Source: Puniceicoccales bacterium | Lineage (GTDB): Bacteria > Verrucomicrobiota > Verrucomicrobiia > Opitutales > UBA953 | Length of the DNA stretch: 52,597 bases | Reading direction: 5' to 3' | Assembly (NCBI GenBank): GCA_031273045.1 | Contig: JAISSQ010000166.1 | Span: forward strand, 1-52,597 | In this document: one piece after another, positions 5,184-44,845 of the stretch | Layout of the letters: every line of letters begins with the position of its first letter | How positions within the stretch are numbered: the first letter of the stretch is position 1 | The notes under the pieces: model-generated | What the model saw: the letters and a program-made list of their open reading frames with translations, nothing else | Databases searched by the model: none | Told to the model about the DNA's origin: nothing | Made by a program: the position numbers and the translations under genes

Positions 5184-6329
<1,146 letters not shown>

Positions 6330-26596: not shown

Positions 26597-27877
26597 GCGC
26601 AGTCCGAGAAAGAGTCCGCGCAGTTCGGAAAGACCGCGCATGCGCCCGATGCACGGGTAGCCCGGCGTGACGCCTTCCGGTTTGCCGAGGTCGTCCAAAA
26701 TCTTCCAGCCGTGGTCGGAGCGAAACGGCATGCGCCACGCACCGCCGGTGCCTTCTTCACCGGCACCGCCGGCACCGCCGTTTCGCGCGTCTTGCGCGTC
26801 CAGCAGGGCGGCGGCGACGGCCGGCATGTCAACGGAGTCGGCGCCGCCGAGGTGGGCGTCCTCGTGGAAGGAGCCGTCGGGGAGGCGGCGCGTTGCGCGC
26901 AGGTGCGCGGCGTGGATGCGCGGGGCGAAACGGCGCGCCATGCGCGGCAGGTCGTTGTCGGCGCGCGCGCCCAGCGAGCCGGTGCACAGGCACAGGCCGT
27001 TCGCCGGCGACGGCACCGCCGCGAGCAGGCGGGCGATTTGCTCCTCGGTCGAGACGATGCGCGGCAGTCCGAGCACGGGGAACGGCGGGTCGTCGGGGTG
27101 GATGGCGAGGACGACGCCGGCGCGCTCGGCGGCGGGGACGATGGCGTCGAGGAAGCGCGCGAGGTTCGCGAAGAGCGCGTCCTCGCCGACGCCCTCGTAG
27201 CGGGCGAGCATCGCGCGGATGTCGTCGAGCGACAGCCCCCATTTGCAGCCGGGAAAAACGTCAATTATGTCGGCGACGAAGCGTTCGCGCTCGTTGCCGG
27301 TGAGGTCGTCCCACCACGTCTTGGCGCGGGCGACGCGCTCCGTTCCGTGCTCGGCGGCGGCACCGGCGCGGCGCAGCGCGAAGACGTCGAACGCGGCGAG
27401 GCGCACGGGGTCGAAGTGGAGGCACTCGGCGCCGTTCGGCAGGACGTGGCGCATGTCGGTGCGCATCCAGTCGAGCGCGGGCATGAAGTTGTAGATGACC
27501 GTGCGGACACCCTCGTCGGCGAGGTTGCGCAGGGTTTCGGCGTAGTTGCGCAGCAGCGCGGCGTCACCGGCAGTGCCGGTCTTGATGTCCTCGTGGACGG
27601 GCACGGACTCGACGACGCTCCAGCGCAGGCCGGCGCGTTCGAGGAGTTCGCGGCGCTCGCGGATTGCCTCGCGCGGCCAGACCTCGCCGTAGGGGATTTG
27701 GTGGAGCGCGGTGAACACGCCCTCGGCGCCGGACTGGCGCAGCCACGCGGGCGGCACGGGGTCGTTCGGACCGAACCAGCGCATGCACGGTTCGGGCAGG
27801 AGTGCGGCGGTGGCGTTGCCGGTGGCGGCGATGGAAGCGTTGCCGGTGGCGGTGCCGGCGGTGGCGGCGGCACTCAT
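26501..27877 (-). CDS. uxuA: Mannonate dehydratase with repeat-derived C-terminus
   Basis: Dehydrates D-mannonate to 2-keto-3-deoxygluconate in glucuronate breakdown. Family landmarks are RWFGPNDPV, TALHQIPYGEVW, LAIHPDDPPFPVLGLPRIVS, PSPANGLCLCTGSLGARADND, HAAHLR and RSDHG, which give the metal-binding TIM-barrel site. The native protein should end near ELRGLFLGLR. Instead about 30 further residues (THGAPTIQSARQCCG...) are translated from repeat copy 2. The first 31 residues (SAAATAGTATG...) are low complexity encoded by gccggcaccgcc units; M32 (27784) would give the normal UxuA start. The upstream ATG overlaps the rph stop by 4 nt, favouring it. The active site is complete, so it is probably functional. 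Confidence 0.9.
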   Translation of the reverse strand: MSAAATAGTATGNASIAATGNATAALLPEPCMRWFGPNDPVPPAWLRQSGAEGVFTALHQIPYGEVWPREAIRERRELLERAGLRWSVVESVPVHEDIKTGTAGDAALLRNYAETLRNLADEGVRTVIYNFMPALDWMRTDMRHVLPNGAECLHFDPVRLAAFDVFALRRAGAAAEHGTERVARAKTWWDDLTGNERERFVADIIDVFPGCKWGLSLDDIRAMLARYEGVGEDALFANLARFLDAIVPAAERAGVVLAIHPDDPPFPVLGLPRIVSTEEQIARLLAAVPSPANGLCLCTGSLGARADNDLPRMARRFAPRIHAAHLRATRRLPDGSFHEDAHLGGADSVDMPAVAAALLDAQDARNGGAGGAGEEGTGGAWRMPFRSDHGWKILDDLGKPEGVTPGYPCIGRMRGLSELRGLFLGLRHTHGAPTIQSARQCCGATPLQFQKKSGGCAA

Positions 27878-28661: not shown

Positions 28662-30560
28662 TCAGTGTGTTTGGACAGGTTTGGCGGACGGCGGTTGCGG
28701 CAGTTGCGGCACCGGCGCGGGTTCGGAAATGTAAAAGCGGATTTTTCCGCCGATGCGCTTGTGTTCGGAGCGCAGCCACGGGTCGAGCAGGGCGGCGGGC
28801 ACGACTTTGTAGAGAACGACGGAAGGCGTCGCGGCTACGGGGCGGGCGGCGGCACCAAGCGCGGAAAGAAAATGCGAGCGCATTTCCGCGCTACCGGTGC
28901 CGACAACCACCCATGCGACGGCGTCGGGATGGGAAGCCCACGAGAACGCGCGGGCAGGGGCGGGTGTCTCGGCGGGGAAAAGTTCGAGGAATCGGCGACC
29001 CCAAAAACGCTCGAACGCCGGCGGCTTGCCTCCGGCGGTGGCGGCGGTCCGGTGCTCCAAATGCAACCCCGCCTGTTCGGGAAGATGAAAACGCAAAATC
29101 TCCTCGCGTCCGGCGTTCTCGACATCCGCGAGCATGAAAACCAAGTCGCGCGGGCGCGCCTCGCGTTGGATTGCGCCGACGATTGCGTCGTGCTCCGCAT
29201 TCAGTGTCCTTTCGACAACAAGCGCGCCGGGCAGAGTGACAAACAACCAGATGACAAGCATGCTGCCGGTGACGGCGGGAAATAAGAAACGAACGCGCGA
29301 GCGCGAGGCGGAGCATTTCGCGACTTCGATTGCAAAGAACGCCCAAAGGATTCCATAAACGGGAAAGAAATATCGGTGCTCGATGAGGTTGCGTTTGAGA
29401 AAACCGTAAAGCAACATGGCGGCGAAAAGCAGCAACGGCGCGAGCAACGCGACCGGAAAAAAGAAATCCCTTGTTGTCTGCCCACCGGTAGTGCCCGATT
29501 TTTGACGCCGCCAGAACGCGACAACCGCGCCGCAAAAGAGGGCGAGAAGAAACCACGAGCAGAGAAATCCGACGACCGTGGAGTCGTCGGGGTCGAACGC
29601 GAACAAAACATAGCGGACGCAGCGTCCAAGCGTCATCGGGGGTATCCAAAAATCGGCGGAGGCGTTTTGAAAATGGCGGAGCGGGACGGAAATCCACGGG
29701 AGGTAGAGCAGAAACATGACGGCACCGGTGACAACAATTGGCAATCGCTCCGGGCGACGTTTCCAAATGGCGAACAGCGCGAGAAAGAAACCGCCGAGCG
29801 CGACAAACGCGCCGGCGTAGTAATGCGTGTAGGCGGCGCAAACGCCGAAGAACGCAAAGCCGACGCACGCAAGCACTTTCGCGCGCGGACGGTCTGCGTT
29901 GAGAATGCGCCACGCGCACAAGGCCGTCAGCGTCACAAAGAAAAACGCGAGCGTGTAGCCGCGAATGTCCGTCGCGTATTTGACAAACGCGCCGACGGTG
30001 TTCACGGAAAGCAAAAACACGGTTCCGGCGCGCAAAGAGTATTCCCGATTGAGAAAAAGCGACAGCGCGCCAATCGTCAGCACCATGGGAACAACGGAAA
30101 AGATTTCCAATGAGTTGACGCCGAACCCAAAGAGAAGCGTCCAGATTTTCGCGAGCAGATAATAAAGCGGAGGATGGACGTCGGTCTGCTGGACGGCAAT
30201 GATTTCCGACAGCGAGAAGTTTTTGAGTGTTAACAGCGTGAATGTCTCGTCCACCCAAAGGCGTTCGCCCATGAGCGCGAGGGAAATGGTCGTTGCGACA
30301 AATCCGAAAAACAAGACGCCCTGAAAGAAGAAATGCCGGCAGCGGTCGTCTCCAATGGAATCCGGAACGGAACGGCACCGGTGGCGGCGGCGGAAAAACA
30401 AAACTCCGGCGAACGCTGCGCAGAGAATGAGCGCGGAAAACAAAAGCGATGTTTGCCCGTGCCAGAGCGCGGGAACACCCTGCGGGCGCGGCGAGCGCGA
30501 GGAAAAGACAAACTGCTCGACTTGGCTGGCAGCAAAAGAGAGAAACGGGAAAAGTGTCAT
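28662..30560 (-). CDS. GT39-like polytopic glycosyltransferase (paralogue A)
   Basis: A 632-residue integral membrane protein with about ten or more hydrophobic segments in its first 460 residues and a soluble C-terminal part. The first periplasmic loop has LWVDETFTLL, with the acidic residue typical of GT-C enzymes of the PMT/ArnT type, and DVHPPLYYLLAK follows. Such enzymes move a sugar from a polyprenyl-phosphate carrier to an acceptor outside the cytoplasmic membrane. It is clearly related to the product of 36911-38533 over HPPLYYL, DIRGYTLAF, THYYAGA and YLPW segments and in the C-terminal tail (AWVVV...FLSALG). It overlaps the upstream acyltransferase gene by 4 nt. Sugar and acceptor unknown. 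Confidence 0.8.
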   Translation of the reverse strand: MTLFPFLSFAASQVEQFVFSSRSPRPQGVPALWHGQTSLLFSALILCAAFAGVLFFRRRHRCRSVPDSIGDDRCRHFFFQGVLFFGFVATTISLALMGERLWVDETFTLLTLKNFSLSEIIAVQQTDVHPPLYYLLAKIWTLLFGFGVNSLEIFSVVPMVLTIGALSLFLNREYSLRAGTVFLLSVNTVGAFVKYATDIRGYTLAFFFVTLTALCAWRILNADRPRAKVLACVGFAFFGVCAAYTHYYAGAFVALGGFFLALFAIWKRRPERLPIVVTGAVMFLLYLPWISVPLRHFQNASADFWIPPMTLGRCVRYVLFAFDPDDSTVVGFLCSWFLLALFCGAVVAFWRRQKSGTTGGQTTRDFFFPVALLAPLLLFAAMLLYGFLKRNLIEHRYFFPVYGILWAFFAIEVAKCSASRSRVRFLFPAVTGSMLVIWLFVTLPGALVVERTLNAEHDAIVGAIQREARPRDLVFMLADVENAGREEILRFHLPEQAGLHLEHRTAATAGGKPPAFERFWGRRFLELFPAETPAPARAFSWASHPDAVAWVVVGTGSAEMRSHFLSALGAAARPVAATPSVVLYKVVPAALLDPWLRSEHKRIGGKIRFYISEPAPVPQLPQPPSAKPVQTH

Positions 30561-32602
30561 GGCGCGGGAGCAGGTTGAGGATTATGTCTTTGATTTTGCG
30601 GCGGGTGTTGCGCCGCCGGTGATTGCGACGGAAGCGTCGTGTCGAGCAATTTGTCAAACAGCGGGCGCGTGAGTTCCGCTCCGGCATCGCAAAGATGGTC
30701 ATCGTCACCATAGAGAAATTTCCCGTTCTCCAAATAGCGCACGCTGCCGTCCGCATTGAGGAAAAGCGCGTCGGGGCGGACAACTAAAAAGCGACTTTCG
30801 CGCTTTGCAAGTTCTTCAAGCGCGGCGGTGACGCGCCGCCGTTTTTGCTCGCGGTAGCAAGGGAAGACGGACGGGAATTTTCCGTCGCGCCGGTGGAAGA
30901 AACGCATGGAGTCAAGGAACGAGACGCGGTCACCGATTTCCAATGTCGGCACCTGCGCGACAATTGCGATTTTCAGCCCCGTTTCGCGCGTGGCGTCGAG
31001 CAGTTCTTGCACGGAGGCGCAAAGCGCGTCCGGCTCGCAAATGGCAATCGGGTCGGCGATGATGAGCAATTTTGATTTCCACGTTCTGCTCCATTTCAGG
31101 ATGTCCGCGCGCAGGTCGTTCCCGATTTTGTTGCTTCCGAACGGCGAGGTTCCATAGCGGCAGAGAAACGCGATAGGGATGTCTTTTGCGACGCAGACGT
31201 CGTCGAGCACGCGCGCATACATAAGGGCATGGGAACTGCCGGCGAGGACGACTTCCGGCGTTTGGGAATTGGATTTTGCGGACGGGCGGACAAGCGCGGC
31301 GCGGTCGGGCGTGAGGAACGCCGTTGGGCGCGGCGGAAAACGGCGCTCGTCCCAAGCACCGGCGTTAAATTTATCCGTCACATACAAATCGCCGAACCAG
31401 TCAATTTTCCCAAGGACGTTCGCTTCTTTCGGGAACGGTTTGATTTCCCCGAAATAGTAGCAAAGCGAGAAGGTTGTGATGAACATTCCGGCGATAATCG
31501 CGAGGCGGCGTTCCCGCCCTTTTCTTCGGCGGCGCAGTGGACATTCGACAAAATAGTAGGCGGCGACGCCGAGAATAATCCCCAAAATCCCGCCGGCAAC
31601 GGCACCGGTGCGCTCGGAGCCATGGGCATACGTCCAGAGAATGCTCGTGAGCACAATTGCCGGCCAATGCCAGAGATAAAGCGAGTAGGAAACCTTTCCG
31701 ATTGCCGCGAGCGGGCGCGCTTGGAGCGCGCGAAGCAAAAATGAATGCTTGGCGCGCAGCGAAAAGAGAACCAACGCCGAGCCGATGACCGGCAGCGCGG
31801 CTATCCATCCGGGGAACGGCGCCCAGCGCGGAATGAAAAAATAAGAACCGATAATCAGCACGAGACCGGCAACGCCGGACACTGTGCGCCGACCCGCGAC
31901 AAGTCCGTCGAACGGGCGCGTCACCAGCGCAAGAACACCGCCGGCGAGCAATTCCCAGAAGCGCGTGTGCGGCAAATAAAACGCGGACGCCTGATTGTGC
32001 GCGGTCAGCCAGACGGAGCACAGAAAACTTGCGAGAATTAACAACGCGAGAAAGGGAACAAAGAAACGTTTTAGGGAAAATCCGAACCAAAGCAGGAGCG
32101 GGAAGAAAAGATAAAATTGCTCCTCGACGCCGAGCGACCAGTAGTGGATGAACGGGGCACCGTCGGCGGCAACGCCCCAGTAATCGCCGAGATGCGTCCG
32201 CGCAAAAAAGTTCGGGAGCGCGATGAGCGAGAACAAGCCGTGGCGACCGGAGAAATTCGCGCACTCCGGCGGCAGAAAGAGCGCGGCGACGATGATAGTC
32301 GCGGCGATGGCGAGCACCGCGTTCGGAAGCAGACGCTGGATGCGCCGCAGGTAGAATTCCAGAAAGAACCCGCGCGCGGACGGGTTGCCTTGCAAATCCT
32401 TTTGCAGGATGGCGGTGATGAGAAAACCGGAGAGGACAAAGAAAACATCCACGCCGACATAGCCGCCGGTCAGGGATTCGGGGAAAACGTGAAAGATGAA
32501 CACGCCAGCGATGGCAAGCGCGCGCAAGCCATCAAGACCGGGGATGTGCCCACGGGAAATCTTCTCCACCGGCAACGACGCATTGCTTCGCGCTTCGCTC
32601 AT
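30557..32602 (-). CDS. OafA/YrhL-type acyltransferase with C-terminal SGNH domain
   Basis: Membrane O-acyltransferase of the acyltransferase-3 family, 681 residues. The N-terminal roughly 370 residues contain GLDGLRALAIAGVFIFHVF (the conserved His region), GVDVFFVLSGFLI and HYWSLGVEEQFYLFFP. The C-terminal part is an SGNH hydrolase-like domain: VVLAGSSHALMYARV is the block with the nucleophile serine, and GDDDHLCDAGAEL supplies the Asp-x-x-His pair. These two-domain proteins usually acetylate surface polysaccharides such as O-antigen or peptidoglycan. Start and stop overlap the neighbouring genes by 4 nt on both sides. The acceptor is presumably the glycan made by this cluster. Confidence 0.92.
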   Translation of the reverse strand: MSEARSNASLPVEKISRGHIPGLDGLRALAIAGVFIFHVFPESLTGGYVGVDVFFVLSGFLITAILQKDLQGNPSARGFFLEFYLRRIQRLLPNAVLAIAATIIVAALFLPPECANFSGRHGLFSLIALPNFFARTHLGDYWGVAADGAPFIHYWSLGVEEQFYLFFPLLLWFGFSLKRFFVPFLALLILASFLCSVWLTAHNQASAFYLPHTRFWELLAGGVLALVTRPFDGLVAGRRTVSGVAGLVLIIGSYFFIPRWAPFPGWIAALPVIGSALVLFSLRAKHSFLLRALQARPLAAIGKVSYSLYLWHWPAIVLTSILWTYAHGSERTGAVAGGILGIILGVAAYYFVECPLRRRRKGRERRLAIIAGMFITTFSLCYYFGEIKPFPKEANVLGKIDWFGDLYVTDKFNAGAWDERRFPPRPTAFLTPDRAALVRPSAKSNSQTPEVVLAGSSHALMYARVLDDVCVAKDIPIAFLCRYGTSPFGSNKIGNDLRADILKWSRTWKSKLLIIADPIAICEPDALCASVQELLDATRETGLKIAIVAQVPTLEIGDRVSFLDSMRFFHRRDGKFPSVFPCYREQKRRRVTAALEELAKRESRFLVVRPDALFLNADGSVRYLENGKFLYGDDDHLCDAGAELTRPLFDKLLDTTLPSQSPAAQHPPQNQRHNPQPAPAP

Positions 32603-33873
32603 TGGGTGCCTCCCTTTTCCTGCGCTGAATGACGCGGCGTTTTGTCACCGGCAGTGCGGAAAAGACGGATTTTCTCGCACCATCCGAATGCCATGCCAAG
32701 CAACGCGCTCACAACGAAAACAAAGACGAAATCAAGAATAAGACCACCGCGCGCCAATCGTGTCGGAACATTGCCAAAATTGTAGATGAAGACATACAAC
32801 AGGACGAAGGCAAAAGGATGAAAGAGGACTATGGCGTAGCCATTCTTAATGTAAGAGCGGAAGAGGAAGTCAAAAATCTTCAGGGTCCCGCAAGAACGCA
32901 GAAAGTTGAGGAATTTGAGAATTTTACTTCGCGCACAGAAGAACAGGGAGAATACGCCGAGTGAGTAGGCGAGAAAAATAAAATTGGGCGGGAACTTGTT
33001 CCCCTGCATGTCGAGGGCATAAGGGAAGAATTTCGGGCGCAACTCCATTTTTTGCAGGTCAAAAAAGCAAACAAAAGCGAGGAAGGCAAAAGAAACGCCG
33101 GCAACGCGACACGCAATCTTGCGCGCGCGCTTCTCGCGGCTTGCGATTCGCGCCTCATCCGAGATTTCCTCTTTGTTCCAATGTGTTTGGAACGCAACGC
33201 CGAGTGTCATCCAGAAGGAATAGAAGCAAAAATTTTTGACGAGATAGAGCGCGAGCGGGGAAACCGTTTTGTCGGTGACGAAGAGCAGAAGAAAGTTCGC
33301 GAAGAGAAGCACGCCCAGAAGTCGGAGTGTGTTTTTTCTTCCGCGCCGGCAGAGCGAATGCAGGAGCGGAAAGGCGCAGACCACGAGCAGATAAATCGGA
33401 ACGAACCAAACCGCCCACCAGAGGAACAAAAGGCGGCAATCGCCGGCAACGGAGAATCCGCTCACAGAAAACGGAAGCAAAAATTGCCACAGGAGGGCGC
33501 GAACGGGGGAGGCGTGCGGTTCGCCGAAACCCAGCGCGTTGCCGGTGAGCACGACGACGCCAAGACAAATCGCCGCATAGAGGACATAAGGGATGAAAAT
33601 GCGCTGTAGTCGGTTAAGATAGAACTCACGCAACGAGCGGCGGCGCGCAAGCGCGTTCGACCAACCGGCAAGAAAGAAAATCAGCGGCATCTCCAACAAA
33701 AAGAATGACTTGAACAGTGCCGGCCATCCGTGGGCAAGGTGCGGAAACCAGTAAAGGCAATGAACAAAAATCACCCAGACGATTGAAAGCCCGCGAAGGG
33801 TGTCAAGGGTCGGGTCGCGCGGACGCGCGGCGGGTGTCTGGAAAATTGGAAGCGGATGCGAAGAAATTTCCAT
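32599..33873 (-). CDS. Acyltransferase family 3 membrane protein
   Basis: A 424-residue polytopic protein with about ten hydrophobic segments. DTLRGLSIVWVIFVHCLYW near residue 25 carries the arginine and histidine typical of the acyltransferase-3 family, and LIFFLAGWSNA and REFYLNRLQRIFIPYVLYA follow as in fucose 4-O-acetylase-like proteins. It lacks an SGNH domain. It starts 15 nt after the preceding membrane gene and overlaps the OafA-type gene by 4 nt. It probably adds an acyl group to a surface glycan sugar. The nearby gmd/rmd pathway makes a deoxysugar acceptor possible but unproven. Confidence 0.8.
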   Translation of the reverse strand: MEISSHPLPIFQTPAARPRDPTLDTLRGLSIVWVIFVHCLYWFPHLAHGWPALFKSFFLLEMPLIFFLAGWSNALARRRSLREFYLNRLQRIFIPYVLYAAICLGVVVLTGNALGFGEPHASPVRALLWQFLLPFSVSGFSVAGDCRLLFLWWAVWFVPIYLLVVCAFPLLHSLCRRGRKNTLRLLGVLLFANFLLLFVTDKTVSPLALYLVKNFCFYSFWMTLGVAFQTHWNKEEISDEARIASREKRARKIACRVAGVSFAFLAFVCFFDLQKMELRPKFFPYALDMQGNKFPPNFIFLAYSLGVFSLFFCARSKILKFLNFLRSCGTLKIFDFLFRSYIKNGYAIVLFHPFAFVLLYVFIYNFGNVPTRLARGGLILDFVFVFVVSALLGMAFGWCEKIRLFRTAGDKTPRHSAQEKGGTQ

Positions 33874-33888
33874 GTTCTGTTTTGTGAA

Positions 33889-35379
33889 TTATTGGCGGCG
33901 CAGGTAGGTGTCAAAAAGATTTCCGCCGGTTCCTTGCGAAACGTAGTAGGCGCAGGAAGGGTTGTCGCCAAAACAACTGCCGATGCCTCCGGCGCGCAAG
34001 GGTTCGCCATGCCGGACAAAGTAACTCGCGCGCGTCTTGCGGAGCGAAGTTGCCATTTCGAGAAGCGGCGCGACCGCGCCGACGCATAGCACCAGAACGA
34101 GCAGCGCGCCGCGCGGACGACGGATGGAGGCGGCGTCCAGTTCGTTCGCCGTCCGAATAACGAGCAGCATGACAAAGAACGCCAGCGGCAGAACGACGCG
34201 CCACGCAAAATCGTAGAGCGGTCCGATTTGAATAAACAGGAGAACCGCGCAGGGGAGCGCAAGCACGGCAAGCATTTTCCCTTGATTTTCGCCTTTGACC
34301 GCCTGTTTGCAAAGAACGAGATAGACAAGGAACTCAAAAACAACAAAGAGCGCGAATTTAAGGAAATTCTCGCCGGTGAGCGGCAGAATGGAGCGACCGG
34401 CGGCGGTGTTGTTTGACAGGTAGAAGAGGCCAAGGACGGCGGCGACGCCGCATGCGGTGATGTTCGGAATGGAAACGTTCGCCAAAATGCGGGAGGGAAT
34501 TGTTTGCGAAGCGGCACCGGTGGTTTTGCCGCGCAGCGCAAGGTAGAACGCCGCCGGTAGCATCCCGATAGCGGGAAACGGGGCGAACATGAGCAGGAGC
34601 GCGCAAATGAAAAACAAGGCGGTCTTTGCGCGCTGGTTGAGCAGAAGCGCAAAGGCGACCCAAAACGGAACCACTTGGTTGTAAATATAGAAGAGCGAAC
34701 TGGTGTTGGAAAGATTCTCAAACACCTGCAACGACTTTTCTAACACCATTGCCGGCGGCAGGATTTCGCTGACGATTGCGAAGTCCAAAAATTTAAGAAT
34801 GGCGTAGATGAACACGTCCCAGCCGTCGAAAAGGATAAAAATGAAAACAGCCCGCAGGGTTGCGCGCCCCACAAGAAAAAAGAGCAGACCGAATGCCGTC
34901 GCGACACCGGTGAACGCCCACGCAAATTGCGCGACAAAGCCAAGGGAAAGCGAACCGGTGACTTTGGCGAGCAGTGCCGGCGGTAGCCAGAAACCAAAAT
35001 AATAGACGAGCGAGCGGACAGCGGCGGTGCCGGTGGCATCGGTGGCGTCGGCACTTTGCACCGGCCATGAGTGGTTGACCAAATCGGTGAAGAGCGCGTT
35101 TCGGAAAGCATGGTCCCAGCGGTTCTGCCACGCGAGGCCGCCGACGCCCGACAAAAGAACCCAGAAAAAGAGAATTGCGCCAATCGCGAGCAGTTTCTTT
35201 TTATCCACTGTGAGCGTGCGCTCGCCGGTGGCGCGCATAGCAAAAAAGATTGAGGCGAGGACTGCGATGGAGAGCGGGATGGCGACAAGCGGGCGGCACC
35301 AGTTGAGCAGAAAGAGCAGCACCGGCAGCGCGAGCCAGACATAGGCAAGCAGCGAGAATTGTTTGAGCGAGAACGTCAT
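33889..35379 (-). CDS. Polytopic membrane protein of the glycan cluster
   Basis: A 496-residue protein with about a dozen hydrophobic segments and no motif that I can name with confidence. Its size, a long polar loop (AWQNRWDHAFRNALFTDLVNHSWP, containing acidic and His residues after the first segments) and its position between GT39-like genes suggest another GT-C glycosyltransferase or a polymerase/flippase-like partner. The start at 35379 (MTFSLKQFS) overlaps the upstream stop by 4 nt; the track start ten codons earlier is less likely. The tail ends CFGDNPSCAYYVSQG..., with a CxxxxxxC pair. Function unassigned. Confidence 0.75.
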   Translation of the reverse strand: MTFSLKQFSLLAYVWLALPVLLFLLNWCRPLVAIPLSIAVLASIFFAMRATGERTLTVDKKKLLAIGAILFFWVLLSGVGGLAWQNRWDHAFRNALFTDLVNHSWPVQSADATDATGTAAVRSLVYYFGFWLPPALLAKVTGSLSLGFVAQFAWAFTGVATAFGLLFFLVGRATLRAVFIFILFDGWDVFIYAILKFLDFAIVSEILPPAMVLEKSLQVFENLSNTSSLFYIYNQVVPFWVAFALLLNQRAKTALFFICALLLMFAPFPAIGMLPAAFYLALRGKTTGAASQTIPSRILANVSIPNITACGVAAVLGLFYLSNNTAAGRSILPLTGENFLKFALFVVFEFLVYLVLCKQAVKGENQGKMLAVLALPCAVLLFIQIGPLYDFAWRVVLPLAFFVMLLVIRTANELDAASIRRPRGALLVLVLCVGAVAPLLEMATSLRKTRASYFVRHGEPLRAGGIGSCFGDNPSCAYYVSQGTGGNLFDTYLRRQ

Positions 35380-36914
35380 TGCTTGCCTCCCTCCGGGGAC
35401 AAGAGCCACGCTTCGACATCGGGATAACCTGTGGGAAGCGGGCGGTATTTTTCAGAGAGCAGGGCACCGAGGGAAACCATGTCCGCCGTGCTCTGGACAC
35501 CGGTGCCCTGCAAAATCAATTTTGGCAGAAGTTTTGCGGCACCGGTGGCGTAATCCTGCTGCACGCGCGACGAGTTGATCAGCGGATAGGGGAACGCGCC
35601 GGCGCATTCCCGCCGCGTGTGCAGATAAATGTATGAGGCGTAGCCGCGAACAAGGATTTTGTCGGCGGGGGTTGTGTTTGATTCGACTATCTCACGGATG
35701 CGCGCCATCTTCGCACGCCGCTCGTTCGGAACAAAGCGACAGCGGCTCGGCTGAAACTCCAAATCCGAATAGTTGCGAAGGAGGTTTCGGGTTTCGTAAG
35801 GGAAATAGACGGCGTTGATGAACAGGAACGCCGCCGCGACAAGCACGCTGCCGGTGACGGGAGCGAAGCGCTCGGAAAGGTTGCCGGCGATTGCGAAAAG
35901 GTGCGCGAACCCGATTGCGAAAAACGGAGCACAGATAATCAGATAGTAGGAGAATGTCCCGCCGACGAGACAGGCGCAGACGGAGAAAAACAAGCCGAGC
36001 GAGATTGCGCCGCCTCTGTCTTTTCTTGAAAAGGCGAACAGGAGGCAACCCGTGAGCGGAAGCGCGAAAAGAACGGTGTTCTTTTTCAGAAACCAAAGTA
36101 GCGTCCCGCCGCCGGTGGCTGTGAACTTGTATTCAAAGAGGTTGAAGTAAAACGCCCCATACCAGAAATCGCCAAGCGTGCGCGTCAGAAGAAAATAGAC
36201 GAGGAAAGGCAGAAACGCAAGTGCCGCCGCAAGAGCGGCGAACGCGCTCGCGGAGAGTGCCGGAACCCATTCGCGGGCAACAAGTTCGCCGGCACCGGCG
36301 GGGGCGTCCGCCTTTTCGCTTTGCAATGTTTTTAGCAGAACGGCAATCCACAGGCCGCCCCATGCCGCGACGAGGGTCAGTTTGATAAGCAGGACGAGCG
36401 TGAAAGAAACGCCGATGAGCGCAAGTTGGGCGCGGGACAGGGCGAGACCATTTTTCACGGAGCGGGCGCAAAAATAAGTCGTCGCGCAGATAAAAGGCAG
36501 TGCCCATTCCTCGGTGACGTTCCCGCCGTTCAGGACGGGACACAAAAAGAGCAACGCGGAAATCGTTCCAAGCAATGACTGGCGCGCGGGAAAATAGAGC
36601 AGCAACAATTTGTGAATGGACACGGCGGCGGTGGAAAGCGCGAGCAGTTCAAGAACCCAAATCCCGACAAAATTTCCTCCGGCAAGAAACATGCCGGCAG
36701 CGTCAATCAGATAGAGGAACGGTCCCTTGTGGTCGAGGGCATCCAAATAAGCATGACGTCCGGCAAGCACCTGTTTTGCGACATAGATGTAGGCGCTTGA
36801 ATCCATTCCGATAACGTCGCCGCCGAAGGGTGCAAGCGTCGCTCCCAGAAGGACAATAAGGCAGACGCCGAAAAGGATGTAGCGAGACCGGAACTCCTTC
36901 GAGAAAATCGTCAT
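35376..36914 (-). CDS. Putative GT39-like membrane glycosyltransferase
   Basis: A 512-residue polytopic protein. The first extracytoplasmic loop reads GMDSSAYIYVAKQVLAGRHAYLDALDHKGPFLYLIDAAG. The early aspartate and the 'DHKGPFLYL' segment are what one sees in PMT/ArnT-like GT-C enzymes that use polyprenyl-phosphate sugars. About ten hydrophobic segments follow, then a soluble tail of roughly 120 residues. Both ends overlap neighbouring genes by 4 nt. It is not a close paralogue of the two GT39-like genes with HPPLYYL, so it may use another donor or acceptor. Confidence 0.75.
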   Translation of the reverse strand: MTIFSKEFRSRYILFGVCLIVLLGATLAPFGGDVIGMDSSAYIYVAKQVLAGRHAYLDALDHKGPFLYLIDAAGMFLAGGNFVGIWVLELLALSTAAVSIHKLLLLYFPARQSLLGTISALLFLCPVLNGGNVTEEWALPFICATTYFCARSVKNGLALSRAQLALIGVSFTLVLLIKLTLVAAWGGLWIAVLLKTLQSEKADAPAGAGELVAREWVPALSASAFAALAAALAFLPFLVYFLLTRTLGDFWYGAFYFNLFEYKFTATGGGTLLWFLKKNTVLFALPLTGCLLFAFSRKDRGGAISLGLFFSVCACLVGGTFSYYLIICAPFFAIGFAHLFAIAGNLSERFAPVTGSVLVAAAFLFINAVYFPYETRNLLRNYSDLEFQPSRCRFVPNERRAKMARIREIVESNTTPADKILVRGYASYIYLHTRRECAGAFPYPLINSSRVQQDYATGAAKLLPKLILQGTGVQSTADMVSLGALLSEKYRPLPTGYPDVEAWLLSPEGGKQ

Positions 36915-38533
36915 GGCGTTCCTTTCGTTTTGCTTCGCGACGCTTCCGCTTGGAGAAAGTGGTGGAGTTTTTGGGCGGGAAACACCCGATAAATTTCCGC
37001 GCGTTCCGGTCGTTCCGCTCCGGCGGGGAATTTTTCAACGGCGGCACCGCCGAGCGCGTCCAAAAACCGTTCCCGACTTTTTTCGCCGCGAAAAACGACC
37101 ACCCATGCGGCGCAGTTTTCCCATTTTTTCCATGCTTCCAAATCCCGCACCTCGGCGAACGGAACGAGGGATGCCTTGTCATAGACCTTGCGGTAATGGG
37201 CGTCACCACCGATGCCGTCACTGTATCCAAGACGCAGATAAACATTGGGTGTTTGGGGGAAGAGAAACGCAAGGGTCAGGCGCGTCACCCCGCTTGTGAT
37301 TGGCTCGTCGCCGACGACTGAAAAAATGTCGTCCGGCTTTTTCTCTCTGGCGAGCAAACCATAAAAGGCATCGAATTTTTGATCTTGCTCTTGTTCCGCC
37401 CTCACGGCGTTTGGAATGGTTGTTGTGAACGCGCAAATGGCAAAGAGAGACGCCGCCAGCACCTTGACTGTCTTGTTTTTGTTCCGCCCCAATTCGATGG
37501 CAAGAAACATCCAGACAAGTCCGTAGGCGGGAAAGAGATAGCGCAGGAGCAGCAGCGGATGATTGGACAGAAGCCCGTGCAACACCATGAGTGCGTAAAG
37601 GATTGCAGGGCAGGAGACCAGCGCGAACGCGAAGTAATCCTGTTTTTCCTTGCGCCGGAGGAAAAATCCGGCGAGCAGGAACGCGAGCAATGCGAACGCG
37701 AGTGCGCACAATGCCGCCGGCAGCGGCGAGAACACCCCCTCGGACGACCAAAAAAGACCGATTAGCGGCCATAGCAAATCCTTGAACGAGAACGGCGGCA
37801 GCCAGAAATTCCTTGTCGCCGAAGTTGCGATATTCAGGAATGCGGGAAGCCACGGCAAATAGAGCAGGACCACGGCAAAACCAACGGTGAGCAAACGACG
37901 GAGTTTTTCCCGTTCATGGACAAGCGTATGAAGAAAAAGCAACGCACCGCCGATTGCGCAAATGGCGCCGGCGTAGTAATGCGTTCCGGCGGCAAGCAAC
38001 ATGCTCGCGCCCAACCCGACGCAAACTCCAAGACGCGGTATTTGCTGTTTGACAAAATACCAACCGAAGATGCTTGCCGCGGAGACAAACAGGAACGCCA
38101 GCGTGTAGTCGCGGATGTCGAGGGAGTAGTAGAAAACGAAGAAGTTGGCGTTTGCAATCAACGGGAAAAGCACCGCCGCCGTGCGCGAGAATTCGCGCCG
38201 GAGGAATGCTGAAACCAATGCCAGCGCGAGAAAGAACGGAACGATGCTCGCAACCTCCATGCTTCCGGTTGACGCTCCGAAAACAGACGCCCAAGCCCGT
38301 GCGTAAAGATAGTAAAGCGGCGGATGCGTGTCCTCGCGGCACAGGGAAATGATTTCCGAAAACGGGTGTTGAATCGTCGCGAGCGTGTGGGTCTCGTCAA
38401 TAAAAACGCCGTCGCCCAGCCCCGTCATCCAGAGCGAAACGCCAAGGAAAAGACCGGAGAAGAGCGCGACGAGAAGAAGGGCGAGAGCGTTTTTTTTCGC
38501 ACTTCCCAAACCTGTTGAGCCGAGAGTTTTCAT
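36911..38533 (-). CDS. GT39-like polytopic glycosyltransferase (paralogue B)
   Basis: A 540-residue relative of the 28662-30560 product. Shared features are FIDETHTLATI after the first membrane segment (WVDETFTLLTL in the paralogue), DTHPPLYYLYAR, DIRDYTLAFLFV, GTHYYAGA and NFWLPPFSF, plus a soluble tail with AAWVVVFRGEKSRERFLDALGG. The DE pair is the likely catalytic acid region of this GT-C family. Start and stop each overlap adjacent genes by 4 nt. The two copies differ enough to be old duplicates, probably adding sugars at different steps. Confidence 0.8.
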   Translation of the reverse strand: MKTLGSTGLGSAKKNALALLLVALFSGLFLGVSLWMTGLGDGVFIDETHTLATIQHPFSEIISLCREDTHPPLYYLYARAWASVFGASTGSMEVASIVPFFLALALVSAFLRREFSRTAAVLFPLIANANFFVFYYSLDIRDYTLAFLFVSAASIFGWYFVKQQIPRLGVCVGLGASMLLAAGTHYYAGAICAIGGALLFLHTLVHEREKLRRLLTVGFAVVLLYLPWLPAFLNIATSATRNFWLPPFSFKDLLWPLIGLFWSSEGVFSPLPAALCALAFALLAFLLAGFFLRRKEKQDYFAFALVSCPAILYALMVLHGLLSNHPLLLLRYLFPAYGLVWMFLAIELGRNKNKTVKVLAASLFAICAFTTTIPNAVRAEQEQDQKFDAFYGLLAREKKPDDIFSVVGDEPITSGVTRLTLAFLFPQTPNVYLRLGYSDGIGGDAHYRKVYDKASLVPFAEVRDLEAWKKWENCAAWVVVFRGEKSRERFLDALGGAAVEKFPAGAERPERAEIYRVFPAQKLHHFLQAEASRSKTKGTP

Positions 38534-40305
38534 TCTTTTTTCTTTTGCGGCTCCTTTCCGGTTGTCCTTTGCCCAGCCGCCGGTGCCCAGAGCGCGAAAT
38601 AATCGTTCTCAAACACGGGGCGATACTCGTTCCTCCGAAGAAAATCCTTCAGGACGCGGAGGCGTTCGCGGCTGAAGAGCGGGTAGTCCAGTTTCGTTTC
38701 ATCAAGATAGTTCCTTTGCAAGTCAAACCGCCCCGCGCCGCGAGATTGTTTTGATATGACAACAAACGGACGTTCCGGTTCGCGCTGCTCCGCTTCGCTT
38801 AATTTCTTTGCGAACAGCGACGCCGGGTAGAACAGCGGCCACGATGTCCGCGCGTAGGGGCGCGTGTCGGTCAGGTAATGCACGAGCGGAATGGACTCGT
38901 AGCACAAAAGCGCGTCACCGGCGGCGACATGCTTTTTTAGTTCGGAGAGAAGGGAGTCGAGATTTTCAGCCGTCGCCGGTTTGACAAATACTCCGCGCAG
39001 GAGCGTGGAATTTTTGATTTGCGCCGTCCGTTCGGTGATCCGCCCGGGCGCGAAAAACGGGTTGCACGCCGCCTGATGGCTTGCAACAGCGAAAAATGCG
39101 GCGAACGCGACGCAGAGCACCGGCAGCACATTCGTTCTGTCGGCGGTTCGGGACAGTACGGTCTCCACGAGCAATGCGCAGGAAAACGGGAACGCAAGCC
39201 AGACGGCATACATTCCCGCCGAATAGATGTAGCAATCCGAACCGAACGGAAAGAGGACGAGCAGTAGCAATCCCGCCGCGCACAGCAGTGTTTTTTCCCG
39301 CTGGACGCGCGCGATTTTGGTGAGAAGGAACGCGCCGCCGGTGACGATTGCGATGAAGTAGAAGGCAAAGAATCGCGCTGTCCAAAATTGGTAGTTGAGC
39401 AGGAAGGCGAGCACGAGGAACGCGGCAAGAAGAACGGCGGCGCGAACGGGTCTCGCGGTGATTCTTGAAAGCGCGAAGACAGTCAAAACAAGGGTGAGCG
39501 GAATGCTCCACGGAACGCCGTTCTGGAACACTTTCAGGTAGTTGTGAAAGGCGTAGGAGAGCATGTTCGCAATGCCATGCGCGTCGGCACCGTCGGCTCC
39601 CTTTGCGAAAAGAATTTCCAATGCGTTTCGCAGCACGTCGCCCTGCCCCAGAGTGAAAACGAGGAGTAGCGGTGCGAGCAGTCCGCAGATTGCACCGCCG
39701 GTGAACGCCGCGCCTTGTCTCGCGAGTTGGCGGAGCGCGCCATCTTCTTGCCGACACAGAAGATAGTTCAGGACGATGAGCGCGGCAAGCGAAAGTCCGA
39801 GAAGGTTTGGAACGCGGGCAAAGATGCTTGCGGAAAGAACAAAGCCGGCGAAGAAAACGGGGAGCAGGCGCGTCTCGCGCAATCCTTTCAGGAGCAGGAA
39901 GACGCCGAGCAGTAGCAAAAAAACGCTGAAAGGATTGTAGAAAAAATGCGCCGGCAGACCGGCGTGGCTGAACACGACAAGGGCGACCGAGAGGAGCGCG
40001 GTTTCGGGAGAGAAAACGCGCCGCAGGCAAAGAAAAACGAGAGCGGCGGTGGCTGTCTCAAACAAAAGACCGAGGACGCGCACCCAGAGCAACCCGCCTT
40101 CGGGGAAAACATGCATCCAGACGGAACCGACAAGCCCGCTCAACCAATAGAGAAAGTCAAATTCATGCGCTTCGGGGTGGGAAAAAAATTGCTGATAGAA
40201 GGAGAGGTGCCAGCCGGTGTCCGCCGGCTCAAGCCCGAAGAAAATCCACACCATCTGCCAGAGGGCGAGCGCGGCAAAAAAAGCGACTGCCGGTAGCGTG
40301 CGCAT
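38530..40305 (-). CDS. Large polytopic membrane protein, glycan cluster
   Basis: A 591-residue protein with a dozen or so hydrophobic segments and a soluble C-terminal third. The first loop (FFGLEPADTGWHLSFYQQFFSHPEAHEFDFLYWLSG) holds an acidic residue right after the first membrane helix, as in GT-C glycosyltransferases. No named motif was recognised, so a glycosyltransferase role is inference from topology and context. The end overlaps the next gene by 4 nt. Upstream, 85 nt with an AAGGCGGCAAAGGCGGCGAAGGC-like short repeat separate it from the GT2 stop. It is the first of the run of overlapping membrane genes. Confidence 0.75.
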   Translation of the reverse strand: MRTLPAVAFFAALALWQMVWIFFGLEPADTGWHLSFYQQFFSHPEAHEFDFLYWLSGLVGSVWMHVFPEGGLLWVRVLGLLFETATAALVFLCLRRVFSPETALLSVALVVFSHAGLPAHFFYNPFSVFLLLLGVFLLLKGLRETRLLPVFFAGFVLSASIFARVPNLLGLSLAALIVLNYLLCRQEDGALRQLARQGAAFTGGAICGLLAPLLLVFTLGQGDVLRNALEILFAKGADGADAHGIANMLSYAFHNYLKVFQNGVPWSIPLTLVLTVFALSRITARPVRAAVLLAAFLVLAFLLNYQFWTARFFAFYFIAIVTGGAFLLTKIARVQREKTLLCAAGLLLLVLFPFGSDCYIYSAGMYAVWLAFPFSCALLVETVLSRTADRTNVLPVLCVAFAAFFAVASHQAACNPFFAPGRITERTAQIKNSTLLRGVFVKPATAENLDSLLSELKKHVAAGDALLCYESIPLVHYLTDTRPYARTSWPLFYPASLFAKKLSEAEQREPERPFVVISKQSRGAGRFDLQRNYLDETKLDYPLFSRERLRVLKDFLRRNEYRPVFENDYFALWAPAAGQRTTGKEPQKKKE

Positions 40306-40390
40306 AAGGTGTTTTTGTTGAGGACGGGGGGAAGCGGGAGGAGCGGACGGGCGGGCGGTAGCGAAGGCGGCAAAGGCGGCGAAGGCGCGT

Positions 40391-41167
40391 TTATTCCGAA
40401 CGCGCTTTCAGTTGGCGTTTTATGGCGCAAAAATCGCCAACGGCCTTCCAACCGATTTTGAAAATGCGCCGCAGGTTGATGGAGTTCACTCCGCCCTGCC
40501 TCGGTTTGAAAGTGATGGGCTCCCAAACGCAACGCTCCTTCCATTTGACGGCGATGGTGCTGACGAGCACGTTTGAAAGGAAGAAATCCTTCGGAATGAC
40601 CGCCAGAATCTTTGCCAGACGACCAGCGCGCATGAGGCGGAAAGGCGTGTTGGCGTCGCGCACCTTCTCCCCGAATATCAACCAGATAACGAGTTTCAGA
40701 ACCTTGGTGACAACGATGCGCGAAAAGCCGTCCTGCCGTCCGCCGCGCGAACCGATGATGAAATCAAAGTCGGCGCGTTTTTCCCAGAATTTCCAGAATT
40801 CATCGGGGTCGGTCTGACCGTCGCTGTCGGTCTGGAAAATGTATTTCGCGCCGAGTTCGATTGCCTTGTTGTAGGCGAAAAGGCAGGTCGCGCCGTGACC
40901 GGAGTTCGGTTTGTCGAGCGCGATGAGGCGCGGAAATTTTAACACATTTCCCTCGACGGTTCTTTTTTCGAGTTCGTGCAAAATCGCGCTCGTGTTGTCC
41001 TTGCTACCGTCATTGACGATGAGTAGCCGCGCGTCGCCGCCGATTTTTTCCACAACAGGATGCCATTGGGCGACAACGGCTTCGATGTTGTCCTGCTCGT
41101 TGTAGGCGGGCATGACAAGGAAAAGGGCGGTGTCGCTATTGGAGGGGGCGTTTGGGTCGGTGCTCAC
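40391..41167 (-). CDS. Glycosyltransferase family 2, polyprenyl-phosphate sugar synthase-like
   Basis: A 258-residue soluble GT-A enzyme resembling dolichol/undecaprenyl-phosphate mannosyltransferases. PAYNEQDNIEAVV and IVNDGSKDNTSAIL form the nucleotide-sugar site, and QTDSDGQTDPDEF contains the DxD metal motif. FRLMRAG and later basic segments match the GT2 DPM1-like pattern; there is no C-terminal membrane domain. The first ATG in frame (MPAYNEQ) would cut off the first beta strand, so I take GTG 41167, which also clears the upstream stop at 41257. It probably loads a polyprenyl phosphate with the sugar used by the GT39-like enzymes encoded downstream. Confidence 0.85.
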   Translation of the reverse strand: MSTDPNAPSNSDTALFLVMPAYNEQDNIEAVVAQWHPVVEKIGGDARLLIVNDGSKDNTSAILHELEKRTVEGNVLKFPRLIALDKPNSGHGATCLFAYNKAIELGAKYIFQTDSDGQTDPDEFWKFWEKRADFDFIIGSRGGRQDGFSRIVVTKVLKLVIWLIFGEKVRDANTPFRLMRAGRLAKILAVIPKDFFLSNVLVSTIAVKWKERCVWEPITFKPRQGGVNSINLRRIFKIGWKAVGDFCAIKRQLKARSE

Positions 41168-41256: not shown

Positions 41257-44200
41257 TTACGGTCTGCCGAACCAGTTTGCGCTTTGGACGGTGCGCTGGC
41301 GTTCCTCGCGCTCGTCGGAGAGGGAACCTTTGAACCACGCTTTGGCGTGGAAGTTGTAAGGGGCGCCCGCCGGCAGTGCGCGTTGGAAGGGCAGCGCGAG
41401 GGCTTGCGGGCGGCCGGCGGGGACGGCGGTGTCGGGGCGTTCGTGGCAGCCGACGCAGCCCTTCTGCTCGCCCGGGCGGACGTTAATCCAGACGAGTTGG
41501 TTGCCGACGACGTTGCGGTCGGCGTCGAGCACTTGCAGGGCGAGGAACTTGTCGGCGGGGACGGTCAGCGCGAACGAGCCGTCGGGCGCGAGGGGGACGA
41601 TTGCGAGGTCGCGCGCGAACGCGCCGCCGTGGTTTTTCCACGCGAACTCGCCGGGGATGGTGTGCGTGGCGTGGCGGGTGACTTGGGGCAGCGCTTCGAC
41701 GACGCGCAGGAGGCGGCTGTGCCGGCGCACGCGCTCGTCCTGCGTGTGGAAGACGCTTTGGCAGTAGAGCGAGCCGGTGTGCTGCGAGGTTCGCGCGGCG
41801 GGGTCGTCGGGCAACGCCGGCGGTCGCGCTCGCGGGCGCAACGGGCGCGGTTCGAAGCAGGCGACGCCCGGCTCGGCGTGGAGACGGGTGAGTTCGCCGG
41901 TGGCGACGTCGAGCGTGCAAATGGCGTGGGCGACGCCGTCCTTGGGGAACTGCGCGTTCTCGAAGACCTTTGGTTTCTCGCCGGCGGCGACGAGCAGCGT
42001 GTGGCGGTCGAGTGGGAAGGCACCGGTGATGGCGAACGGGTCGTTGCCGCCTTTGCGCAGGAACTTTTCGCGCAACAGCCGCTCGCCGTGGCGTCCCTGC
42101 GTGAGGACGGGACCGGCGGGCGTTGTGAGCAGCACCTGTCCGTCGTAAAACGGCTGCGGTTGCGTGAGGCGCAGGACGCGGTGTCGCGCGCCGGTCGGGG
42201 ACATATCGCCGCCGGCGAACCAGCCGCCGTAGCCGCCGGCAATCTTCGCCCAGAAGCCGCGCCGTTCGGGGCCGTAGAGCGTCTGCGCGCGCGTGCCGTC
42301 GGGGTTCACGGCGAGCAGGTTGAACTCGGTTTTCATCCGCGAGTAAAACAGTTCGAGGCGCGTGAAGAGAATGCGCCCGTCGTGCCCGACGGACGGCTCG
42401 GCGTCGCGCCCGAAGTTGAAGCCGATGTTCTGGATGTCGGAGCCGTCGGCGCGCATCACGCACAGCCCCGTGCACGGGTAACCGTGGTATTCGTCGCGCG
42501 TGCCGAGGCGCGTCGAGGCGAAGGCGATGCGACCGTCGGGCAACTCCACCGGCGACACGTCGTGGAAGCGTCCGCGCGTGACCTGCGCGAGGCCGGAGCC
42601 GTCGGCGTTGACGCGCCAGATGTGCCACCACGGTTCGGCGCGTTCGCGGCGCGTGAACCACACGACGCGCCCGTCGTAGGAGACCTCGCACTCGCCGACG
42701 TAGCCGTCGGTGAATCGCGTGAGCGGCGAGACGGTGCCGGCGGCGGTGTCGAGGACGAACAGGTTGTCGCCCGGTCGGTAAACGGGACCGCTGTCGGTGG
42801 TCATATAACACTGCCGCCACGGGTCCATTTGGAACGGGTTGTTCGGCGGCGTGACCGCGCCTTTGATGAAGACGATTTTTTGCGGAAGCGGGGAACGGGG
42901 AGCGGGGAGAGTTTGCGCTGCCGGTGGCACCACCGGTGGCGTTTCTTTTGCCGGCAGCGGCGCGACGCCGTGCCGCCAGAGTTCCTCGCGCGCGGCGATG
43001 CGAATGCTGTGGAACGGATTGTCGCGCTCAGCGAGACGCAGCGCGTCGAGCGCGCCGGCGGTGCCGATTTGCCCCAGCGCGAACGCGGCGCGGTGGCGGA
43101 TGCCCAGCGAGTTCTCGTCGCACGGGTCGTTCAAAATCGCCGCCAACGCCGGCACCGACGCCGCGTCGCGCAGCCCGCCCAGTGCCATAATCAACGCCTC
43201 GCGGTGGCGCGGCGTCGGGTCGTTGAACTCGCCCTGCCCCTGCCGGTTTCCGTTCGACGGATGCGGCGGCGCCGCGAACTCGCCGAACGACGCCTCCGGC
43301 CGCGACTCCGCCAACCGCCGGCGCAACGCCGGCACCGCCGCCGGCGCGTCGCCGATGAACAGCAGCGTCTTCGCCGCGTTGATGCGCACCCAGTGGTCGC
43401 GGTGGTCGAGCAACTCAATGAGGCGCGGCACCGCCTCGCGCTCGCGGCACAACGCCGCCACGACATTCGCGTTGAACGGTGCCGAGCGCGGCATACTCGC
43501 GAGGAAGCCGCCGGCGGCGGCGCCGCGTTGCCTGTTCTCCGGCGCAACCGCCGGCACCTTCGCCACTGCCGGCGGCGGCAGCGACGCCGTCGCTTCGAGC
43601 ACCGCGAAAGCGTGCTCCAAAATGCGCTCCCGCTCGCCGCAGCGCGACAGCAACGCCCGCGTGATTTTTTGAAACGGCTCCTCCTCGTAGAAAACGAGCC
43701 GGTCAATATCGAGCGGAATCTGCTGCGCGATGAGCGGCGCGTTTTTGCGCAGCGCGGCGAGCGCGTCGCCGTCGAACTCGAACCGCGACAGCGCGAACAG
43801 CACCGCGTAGGCGGCGGCGAAAATGCGGTCTCGCGAGTCCAGATGCGGGTGGTCGCTCGGATGCGCCGCCTGCGCGATGAACGGCGTCTCGCGCCGCAGC
43901 ACCTTGTCGTCGAGATGCCGCGCGTGCGGCGGGAACACCGCCAGCAACGCCAGCGCGACGCGGTTCCGTACCGCCGGCGACACCCCCTCGCTCTGCGCGA
44001 ACTCCCCCAGCGCGTCCGCCGCATAGCGCGTCCACTGCGGATTCCTCAACAACACTAACAACCCCTCCAACGCCCGCGCCCGCTCCGCCGGCGACACCGC
44101 CGGTGGCACCAGTGACGACGCTGCCGCCGGCGACGACGCTGCCGGCAACGCTGCCGGTAGCGCCGCCGCTCGCCCCAACGCCCGAATTGCCGTCTGGATT

Positions 44201-44793
44201 TTCACCTTCTCATCGGCGTCCGTAATCTGCCGCCACTTTAACACCGGTGCCGGTTTGCTTTTCTCCGCCGCCTTCCGCCCCTTCGCATTCTTCCCTCTGG
44301 CCACCGGCAACTGACCACTGACCACCACCTTCTCCGTCACCGGCGCCACGACCTTCAACGCCGCCGGCACCGACAGCGCGGCGAGCGAGCGCAAATTTTC
44401 GAGCGCGATTTCCGCGCTACGCCGCACCGCCCAATCGCGGTCGTTCTTCGCGACAGCCGCCAACGCCGGTGCCGCCGCCGCTTCCGTTCCGCACCAACCC
44501 AGCGACAACGCTGCCGCCCTGCGCACCGCCGGCGACGCATCCGCGAGTGCCGTGACCAACGCCGGCACCGCCGCCGCCGCCCGCATATAGCCGAGTGCCT
44601 CCGCCGCCCGTTGCCGCTCCGCCGCATCGCCCCCGCGCAATTTCCCGACGCGCAGGAGCACCTCTTCGCGAAACGGATTTCGCCCGTCAACACCGGTGCC
44701 ACCGGTGGCGCCGGACGCACCGGCGGCGGCGAAGAAGCCGAGAAACAGGAGAGCCAAAAACGAGACCGGCAAAAACAGGAGGCGACAGCGCAT
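41257..44793 (-). CDS. HEAT-repeat / beta-propeller protein with CxxCH motif, HzsA-related
   Basis: An exported 1178-residue protein. MRCRLLFLPVSFLALLFLGFFAAAGA is a signal peptide. Residues about 35-580 are HEAT-like helical repeats (AVPALVTALADASPAVRRAAALSLG). A TolB/PD40-like propeller follows from NPFQMDPWRQCYMTTDSGPVYRPGDNLFVLD, with blades such as GPDGRIAF-type 'PDGRIAFASTRLG' and 'GHDGRILFTR'. Near the C-terminus KGCVGCHE is a single c-type haem motif. This propeller-CxxCH arrangement is that of proteins related to hydrazine synthase alpha, widespread in Planctomycetes and Verrucomicrobia without hydrazine chemistry. ATG 44793 is chosen because it starts the signal peptide. Two TGPs of low complexity sit in the HEAT part. 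Substrate unknown. Confidence 0.8.
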   Translation of the reverse strand: MRCRLLFLPVSFLALLFLGFFAAAGASGATGGTGVDGRNPFREEVLLRVGKLRGGDAAERQRAAEALGYMRAAAAVPALVTALADASPAVRRAAALSLGWCGTEAAAAPALAAVAKNDRDWAVRRSAEIALENLRSLAALSVPAALKVVAPVTEKVVVSGQLPVARGKNAKGRKAAEKSKPAPVLKWRQITDADEKVKIQTAIRALGRAAALPAALPAASSPAAASSLVPPAVSPAERARALEGLLVLLRNPQWTRYAADALGEFAQSEGVSPAVRNRVALALLAVFPPHARHLDDKVLRRETPFIAQAAHPSDHPHLDSRDRIFAAAYAVLFALSRFEFDGDALAALRKNAPLIAQQIPLDIDRLVFYEEEPFQKITRALLSRCGERERILEHAFAVLEATASLPPPAVAKVPAVAPENRQRGAAAGGFLASMPRSAPFNANVVAALCREREAVPRLIELLDHRDHWVRINAAKTLLFIGDAPAAVPALRRRLAESRPEASFGEFAAPPHPSNGNRQGQGEFNDPTPRHREALIMALGGLRDAASVPALAAILNDPCDENSLGIRHRAAFALGQIGTAGALDALRLAERDNPFHSIRIAAREELWRHGVAPLPAKETPPVVPPAAQTLPAPRSPLPQKIVFIKGAVTPPNNPFQMDPWRQCYMTTDSGPVYRPGDNLFVLDTAAGTVSPLTRFTDGYVGECEVSYDGRVVWFTRRERAEPWWHIWRVNADGSGLAQVTRGRFHDVSPVELPDGRIAFASTRLGTRDEYHGYPCTGLCVMRADGSDIQNIGFNFGRDAEPSVGHDGRILFTRLELFYSRMKTEFNLLAVNPDGTRAQTLYGPERRGFWAKIAGGYGGWFAGGDMSPTGARHRVLRLTQPQPFYDGQVLLTTPAGPVLTQGRHGERLLREKFLRKGGNDPFAITGAFPLDRHTLLVAAGEKPKVFENAQFPKDGVAHAICTLDVATGELTRLHAEPGVACFEPRPLRPRARPPALPDDPAARTSQHTGSLYCQSVFHTQDERVRRHSRLLRVVEALPQVTRHATHTIPGEFAWKNHGGAFARDLAIVPLAPDGSFALTVPADKFLALQVLDADRNVVGNQLVWINVRPGEQKGCVGCHERPDTAVPAGRPQALALPFQRALPAGAPYNFHAKAWFKGSLSDEREERQRTVQSANWFGRP

Positions 44794-44845
44794 TCGCCCT
44801 TCGACACCCGCTTCCCGCCAAAGTTTTCCGCACCACCGGCAACAC

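Follow-up and report, generated by a model that had tools for sequence, protein, structure and literature searches.

A GT-C-rich, operon-like gene block of a gut Puniceicoccales bacterium with a predicted role in outer-face glycan assembly and acylation

Introduction

The question raised by this locus is what a row of eight minus-strand genes, encoding one GT2 glycosyltransferase, five polytopic proteins and two acyltransferases, would build in a gut bacterium of a poorly studied lineage. The genes lie on a stretch of 52,597 nucleotides (the window), which is contig C74 of a 3.1-Mb metagenome-assembled genome that is 84% complete. The favored answer, with a probability of roughly 0.7, is that the block assembles and acylates a glycan on the outer face of the inner membrane from lipid-carried sugars by charging, flipping, GT-C transfer and acylation. 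A preliminary description of the DNA had already proposed such a GT-C-based pathway with acyl decoration, and the proposal is supported by the fold of gene 3, the paralogy of gene 8, gene 4 and, weakly, gene 2.

Results

Organization and composition of the block

An ORF check of the window found the eight minus-strand genes within 28662-41167 with the ends first noted, together with all five of the exact 4-nt ATGA overlaps described before (Table 1); the sixth junction, previously listed as 15 nt, is a gap of that length and not an overlap. Genes 1 and 2 are separated by 85 nt, and rph (RNase PH) lies downstream of gene 8 at a spacing of 23 nt. The idea that 4-nt overlaps are peculiar to the block was rejected because the adjoining rph and uxuA are also joined by an ATGA overlap (27874-27877), making this an ordinary junction type here. 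Given that overlap and the rph spacing, the block could be transcribed together with these host genes.

What goes beyond chance is the identical overlap at five of the seven junctions and a GC3 of 0.63-0.70 common to all eight genes, compared with 0.81-0.89 in most other window genes examined. The composition of membrane proteins alone cannot account for the low values, as a FecCD-type transporter in the window with nine predicted membrane segments has a GC3 within the higher range. The common low GC3 marks the block as compositionally one unit; one flanking ORF (5454-6674), which has no Pfam match, is also low at 0.68. A search for terminal repeats flanking the block, a sign of recent insertion, gave none that was convincing, the window holds no tRNA genes, and a promoter and terminator scan was uninformative. 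The eight genes form a real, coherent, operon-like block that was probably acquired. The gene upstream of the block (41257-45039) unusually combines HEAT repeats with a C-terminal match to the middle domain of hydrazine synthase alpha (PF18582).

Table 1. Features of the block in window coordinates
Feature	Coordinates	Strand	Basis or property
Gene 1, GT2 (GT-A) glycosyltransferase, 258 aa, predicted polyprenyl-phosphate sugar synthase	40391..41167	-	Glycos_transf_2 and PDB matches
Gene 2, polytopic protein, 591 aa, probable GT-C	38530..40305	-	weak PMT_2 match
Gene 3, GT-C glycosyltransferase, 540 aa	36911..38533	-	AlphaFold2 model and PDB matches
Gene 4, polytopic protein, 512 aa, probable GT-C	35376..36914	-	poor model and PMT_2 match
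Gene 5, polytopic protein, 496 aa, Amuc_2091 family	33889..35379	-	homology to Amuc_2091
Gene 6, membrane acyltransferase 3 (AT3), 424 aa	32599..33873	-	Acyl_transf_3, E=3e-18
Gene 7, AT3-SGNH acyltransferase, OafA-like architecture, 681 aa	30557..32602	-	Pfam
Gene 8, GT-C glycosyltransferase, 632 aa, gene 3 paralogue	28662..30560	-	PMT_2 match and identity to gene 3
ATGA overlaps, 4 nt, five	38530-38533, 36911-36914, 35376-35379, 32599-32602, 30557-30560	-	
Intergenic gap, 15 nt, genes 5 and 6	33874-33888		
Compositional island	28662..41167		GC 54-59%, GC3 0.63-0.70, in 67-72% GC region

Polytopic proteins with predicted GT-C folds

The AlphaFold2 model of gene 3 (pLDDT 80.7) has the GT-C fold, with its 26 best PDB matches all being GT-C enzymes and ArnT placed first (E=1.6e-9). 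A GT-C-fold transferase is a defining component of multi-component transmembrane glycosylation systems, the known class to which the block probably belongs. The broad PMT_2 family (PF13231, gathering cut-off 26.1 bits) is matched by gene 3 at 22.8 bits with hmmscan and at 26.8 bits in a six-frame search, above the cut-off in the latter only, and by gene 8, which is 31% identical to gene 3 in alignment, at 28.7 bits, above the cut-off. The family of these two proteins has conserved W-x-D-E and D-x-H-P-P motifs in which the D, E, H and first P are invariant, and gene 3 also carries an invariant R-x-Y motif.

Gene 4 falls just under the PMT_2 cut-off with 24.7 bits in the six-frame search and has as invariant residues D38, Y56, D58 and a D61-H-K-G motif. 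The 17 best PDB matches of its model are all GT-C or GT-C-related (PIG-U) proteins, the best at E=2e-3, and this low-confidence model (pLDDT 44, built from three sequences) gives a hint that gene 4 is probably a GT-C. The preliminary description had suggested structure prediction for gene 4, and had named transporters or unrelated folds in most of the polytopic proteins as the outcome that would speak against it; GT-C folds came first for gene 4, but at the low pLDDT, and such an outcome is absent in genes 3 and 4, the two proteins modeled. Gene 2 is a probable GT-C by its weak PMT_2 similarity (18.0 bits with hmmscan, 21.4 bits in the six-frame search). When the profiles of genes 2, 4 and 5 were compared with each other and with that of the gene 3 family, nothing convincing emerged apart from a 60-column match between genes 2 and 4 (probability 78%), and searching the PDB with sequence profiles of the four polytopic families gave no match.

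The former naming of three proteins as GT39-like relies on weak PMT_2 matches, and the solved structure closest to gene 3 is ArnT, of GT83, so that placement in PMT/GT39 is tentative; a Pfam scan of genes 2, 3, 4, 5 and 8 gave no match to the MIR domain, a trait of eukaryotic PMTs. The same PMT_2 similarity bears on the reading that the block glycosylates protein, by PMT-like O-mannosylation or pilin-type arabinosylation, with the neighboring giant autotransporter as one conceivable target. An autotransporter-like ORF of 4993 aa is present in the window with the block upstream of it, and O-glycosylation of pilin with lipid-donated arabinofuranose has been mentioned (PMC11127046). This reading is nevertheless very unlikely, as the PMT_2 profile is broad, the best structural match ArnT is a lipid A-modifying enzyme and not a PMT, and no protein-specific feature was found. 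The autotransporter ORF has a host-like GC3 (0.88) with rph and uxuA in between, and the earlier suggestion that the glycan possibly decorates this protein found no supporting evidence.

Gene 1 and the candidate sugar

Gene 1 belongs to Pfam Glycos_transf_2 (E=1e-12) and has ArnC (2.5e-9) and the GtrB-type sll0501 as its best PDB chains. Its start is taken to be GTG 41167 or nearby, with no ATG present ahead of the first β strand. The sequence resembles polyprenyl-phosphate sugar synthases, and the predicted activity is the charging of polyprenyl phosphate. A membrane anchor is usual in GtrB and ArnC; gene 1 is without a C-terminal one and could be an ordinary cytoplasmic transferase instead.

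Among 18 gene 1 relatives from other genomes of the class, 11 have a UDP-galactopyranose mutase gene within 200 bp, often overlapping, compared with 2/32 among the remaining GT2 proteins of the loci sampled, a rough comparison as the control loci came from other searches. This linkage suggests galactofuranose as a plausible sugar for gene 1, and a UDP-galactopyranose mutase above the curated cut-off is present in its own genome on contig C6. In the tree gene 1 falls inside a supported set of nine (99/99), five of them mutase-linked, and pairs directly with a long-branched protein of genome G251, which also carries the closest gene 5 relative.

Mycobacterial galactofuranosyltransferases are also of the GT2 family, and with the mutase linkage this would suit a gene 1 product that acts as a cytoplasmic galactofuranosyltransferase, using UDP-Galf directly on a glycan while other donors serve the GT-Cs. 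Gene 1 has lipid-sugar synthases as its closest solved structures and stands in an operon of membrane transferases, which makes this alternative unlikely. A doubtful extension of the favored pathway of lipid-carried sugars is that the GT2 subfamily makes lipid-linked galactofuranose, which the GT-Cs, perhaps including the Amuc_2091 family, would use on the outer face; a limited literature search found no description of a polyprenyl-phosphate-galactofuranose donor, and the linkage of the subfamily with the mutase offers a simple testable prediction of a new one. Polytopic proteins are found near the GT2 in three loci of this subfamily elsewhere (L126, L130 and L131).

Two of these loci, L126 and L130, belong to other genomes of this class and have the mutase gene and the relative of gene 1 in a single run together with genes for a small and a polytopic protein; in L126 the polytopic protein has a GT-C-like W-I-D-E motif close to its start. 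Both are compact candidate systems for the galactofuranose idea. Mutase genes in the sister genomes G008 (contig C45, L014:15440-16351) and G007 (contig C7, L188) match only some three quarters of the GLF profile and contain a stop codon inside the matched stretch; they may be broken or short forms.

Gene 5 and the Amuc_2091 family

Neither gene 5 nor any of 24 relatives gives a meaningful match in Pfam, and the invariant residues D89, R93 and W105-P106 of gene 5 are all in one predicted loop. Among the 286 genomes of the class that were searched, relatives of gene 5 occur in just one other genus. The relative in genome G134, at contig C1:2,542,369-2,543,943 (L176:9370-10944), has exactly the published coordinates of amuc_2091, and G134 is therefore taken as Akkermansia muciniphila; the gene is entered as a 'hypothetical protein' in the table of the cps1 capsule locus of A. 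muciniphila MucT (PMC13343947). No match to gene 5 was found in phage records, and the positive-inside rule favors no orientation for its topology (15 vs 15 charges). Gene 5 is a possible GT-C and may be Wzy-like. Extracytoplasmic sugar transfer is put forward as a candidate function for this family, which includes a hypothetical gene of the A. muciniphila capsule locus.

Supporting genes elsewhere in the genome

Inside the block neither a flippase nor a sugar-nucleotide gene was recognized, and self-sufficiency of the locus finds no support, with flippase candidates encoded on other contigs. Three GtrA-family matches are present in the genome, one on C139 directly adjoining a gene 3 paralogue, one on C169 adjoining and convergent with a gene 2 paralogue (36%), and one on C180 fused behind a HAD domain. 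Upstream of the latter, in an overlapping gene (L195:9064-11119), is a UbiA protein that scores 209.8 bits against the decaprenyl-phosphate phosphoribosyltransferase model NF008977 (cut-off 234). Together these two genes possibly supply a lipid-linked pentose with its synthase, phosphatase and flippase. Linkage of a UbiA-type polyprenyl phosphoribose synthase to a GT-C gene was not found, the candidate on C180 being outside the block.

Paralogues of gene 3 occur on four other contigs, that on C20 being near a sugar epimerase. The scattered supporting genes are mostly low in GC3 too (0.59-0.78), with the C20 epimerase (0.88), a 725-aa protein on C20 (0.82) and the C169 GtrA (0.81) as exceptions. 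A related island in G008 (L014/L026) brings GT-Cs together on one contig with a HAD-UbiA fusion protein, a sugar epimerase and the shortened mutase, and closely resembles the three-component pentofuranose systems already described (PMC11127046). On contig C144 (L011:5158-9337) a formyltransferase-like gene, an AT3 acyltransferase and a gene 3 paralogue stand in a row, forming a second small sugar-modification cluster.

Acyltransferases and the question of side-chain decoration

Genes 6 and 7 both match Acyl_transf_3, in agreement with the two acyltransferases first noted, and are of the AT3/OafA type, in which a C-terminal SGNH domain is optional. Gene 7 (Acyl_transf_3, E=2e-28) has this domain (E=1e-16) and a partial match to SucT that is under the SucT cut-off.

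An AT3-SGNH protein, an AT3, a GT2 and a GT-C make up the parts list of seroconversion modules, and the block may tentatively be viewed as a side-chain decoration cluster of the gtrABC/OafA kind, in which the polymer is classically made elsewhere and the block would add sugars and acyl groups after polymerization. A post-polymerization three-component system has been described (PMC11127046), and the gene 5 relative Amuc_2091 sits in a Wzy-dependent capsule locus. Against this, five polytopic proteins are many for side chains, and a search of the whole genome for the Wzx family (PF01943) gave 0 matches, compared with matches in 13 of 14 control genomes, and located no polymer-assembly locus. 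The search agrees with the preliminary description, which had seen no Wzx, and with the genome 84% complete such absences are weak evidence. Decoration would be a narrower form of the favored outer-face assembly, and the two overlap.

Discussion

In the proposed outer-face assembly pathway, gene 1 would load a sugar, plausibly galactofuranose, onto polyprenyl phosphate in the cytoplasm, and a flippase encoded elsewhere, putatively one of the GtrA candidates on C139, C169 and C180, would turn the lipid-sugar to the periplasm. The GT-Cs (genes 3 and 8, the probable genes 2 and 4, and perhaps gene 5) would move sugars one by one, in a presumed order, onto the presumed acceptor, a growing or exported surface glycan, and the AT3 enzymes of genes 6 and 7 would add acyl groups to the product. 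A second donor, polyprenyl-phosphate pentofuranose, may perhaps be supplied by the UbiA and HAD-GtrA proteins of C180. One unlinked GtrA flippase can serve several GT-A/GT-C pairs, as known in lactococci (review, PMC8035078). The block is noteworthy for the unusual pairing of a single predicted charging enzyme with as many as five membrane transferases, for its dispersed supporting genes and for the Amuc_2091 family, and brings to light a glycan system rich in GT-Cs in a gut lineage that has been little studied.

The three-component pentofuranose systems of Citrobacter youngae O1/O2 consist of a PPPRS, a MATE flippase, a GT136 GT-C and an epimerase (PMC11127046). The pathway predicted here shares with them a lipid-linked donor, a GT-C transferase and extracytoplasmic sugar addition, and the genome also encodes a phosphoribosyltransferase-like UbiA, a HAD protein and a sugar epimerase. 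In contrast to C. youngae, these parts are spread over different contigs, a GtrA-like protein fused to HAD is the candidate flippase, and up to five polytopic transferases are in an operon with a GT2 and two acyltransferases. The Gtr/Csd-type systems (GtrA-GtrB-Gtr*, CsbB-GtcA-YfhO and CsdCD-CflA; PMC8035078) resemble the block in having a GT-A charging enzyme, here predicted, an unlinked GtrA flippase, here a candidate, and GT-C transferases, but differ from its GT-A to polytopic ratio of 1:5, anchorless GT2 and included acyltransferases. In the undecaprenyl-phosphate aminoarabinose pathway, ArnC is nearest to gene 1 in the PDB by sequence and ArnT is nearest to gene 3 by fold, whereas the block has no ArnA/B/D and gene 3 has ∼15% identity to ArnT in the structural alignment. 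The cps1 locus of A. muciniphila is related through gene 5 and Amuc_2091 and through the acyltransferases in both loci, and is described as Wzx/Wzy-dependent (PMC13343947), unlike the present genome in which no Wzx was found.

A genome scan with the gene 3 family gave as its five best named matches metagenome-assembled genomes of Desulfobulbaceae, Dysgonamonadaceae, Spirochaetaceae, Fibrimonadaceae and Puniceicoccales at 29-32% identity. The sample codes of these five genomes look like termite series, and the spread over five groups would fit an old sharing of such genes in one habitat.
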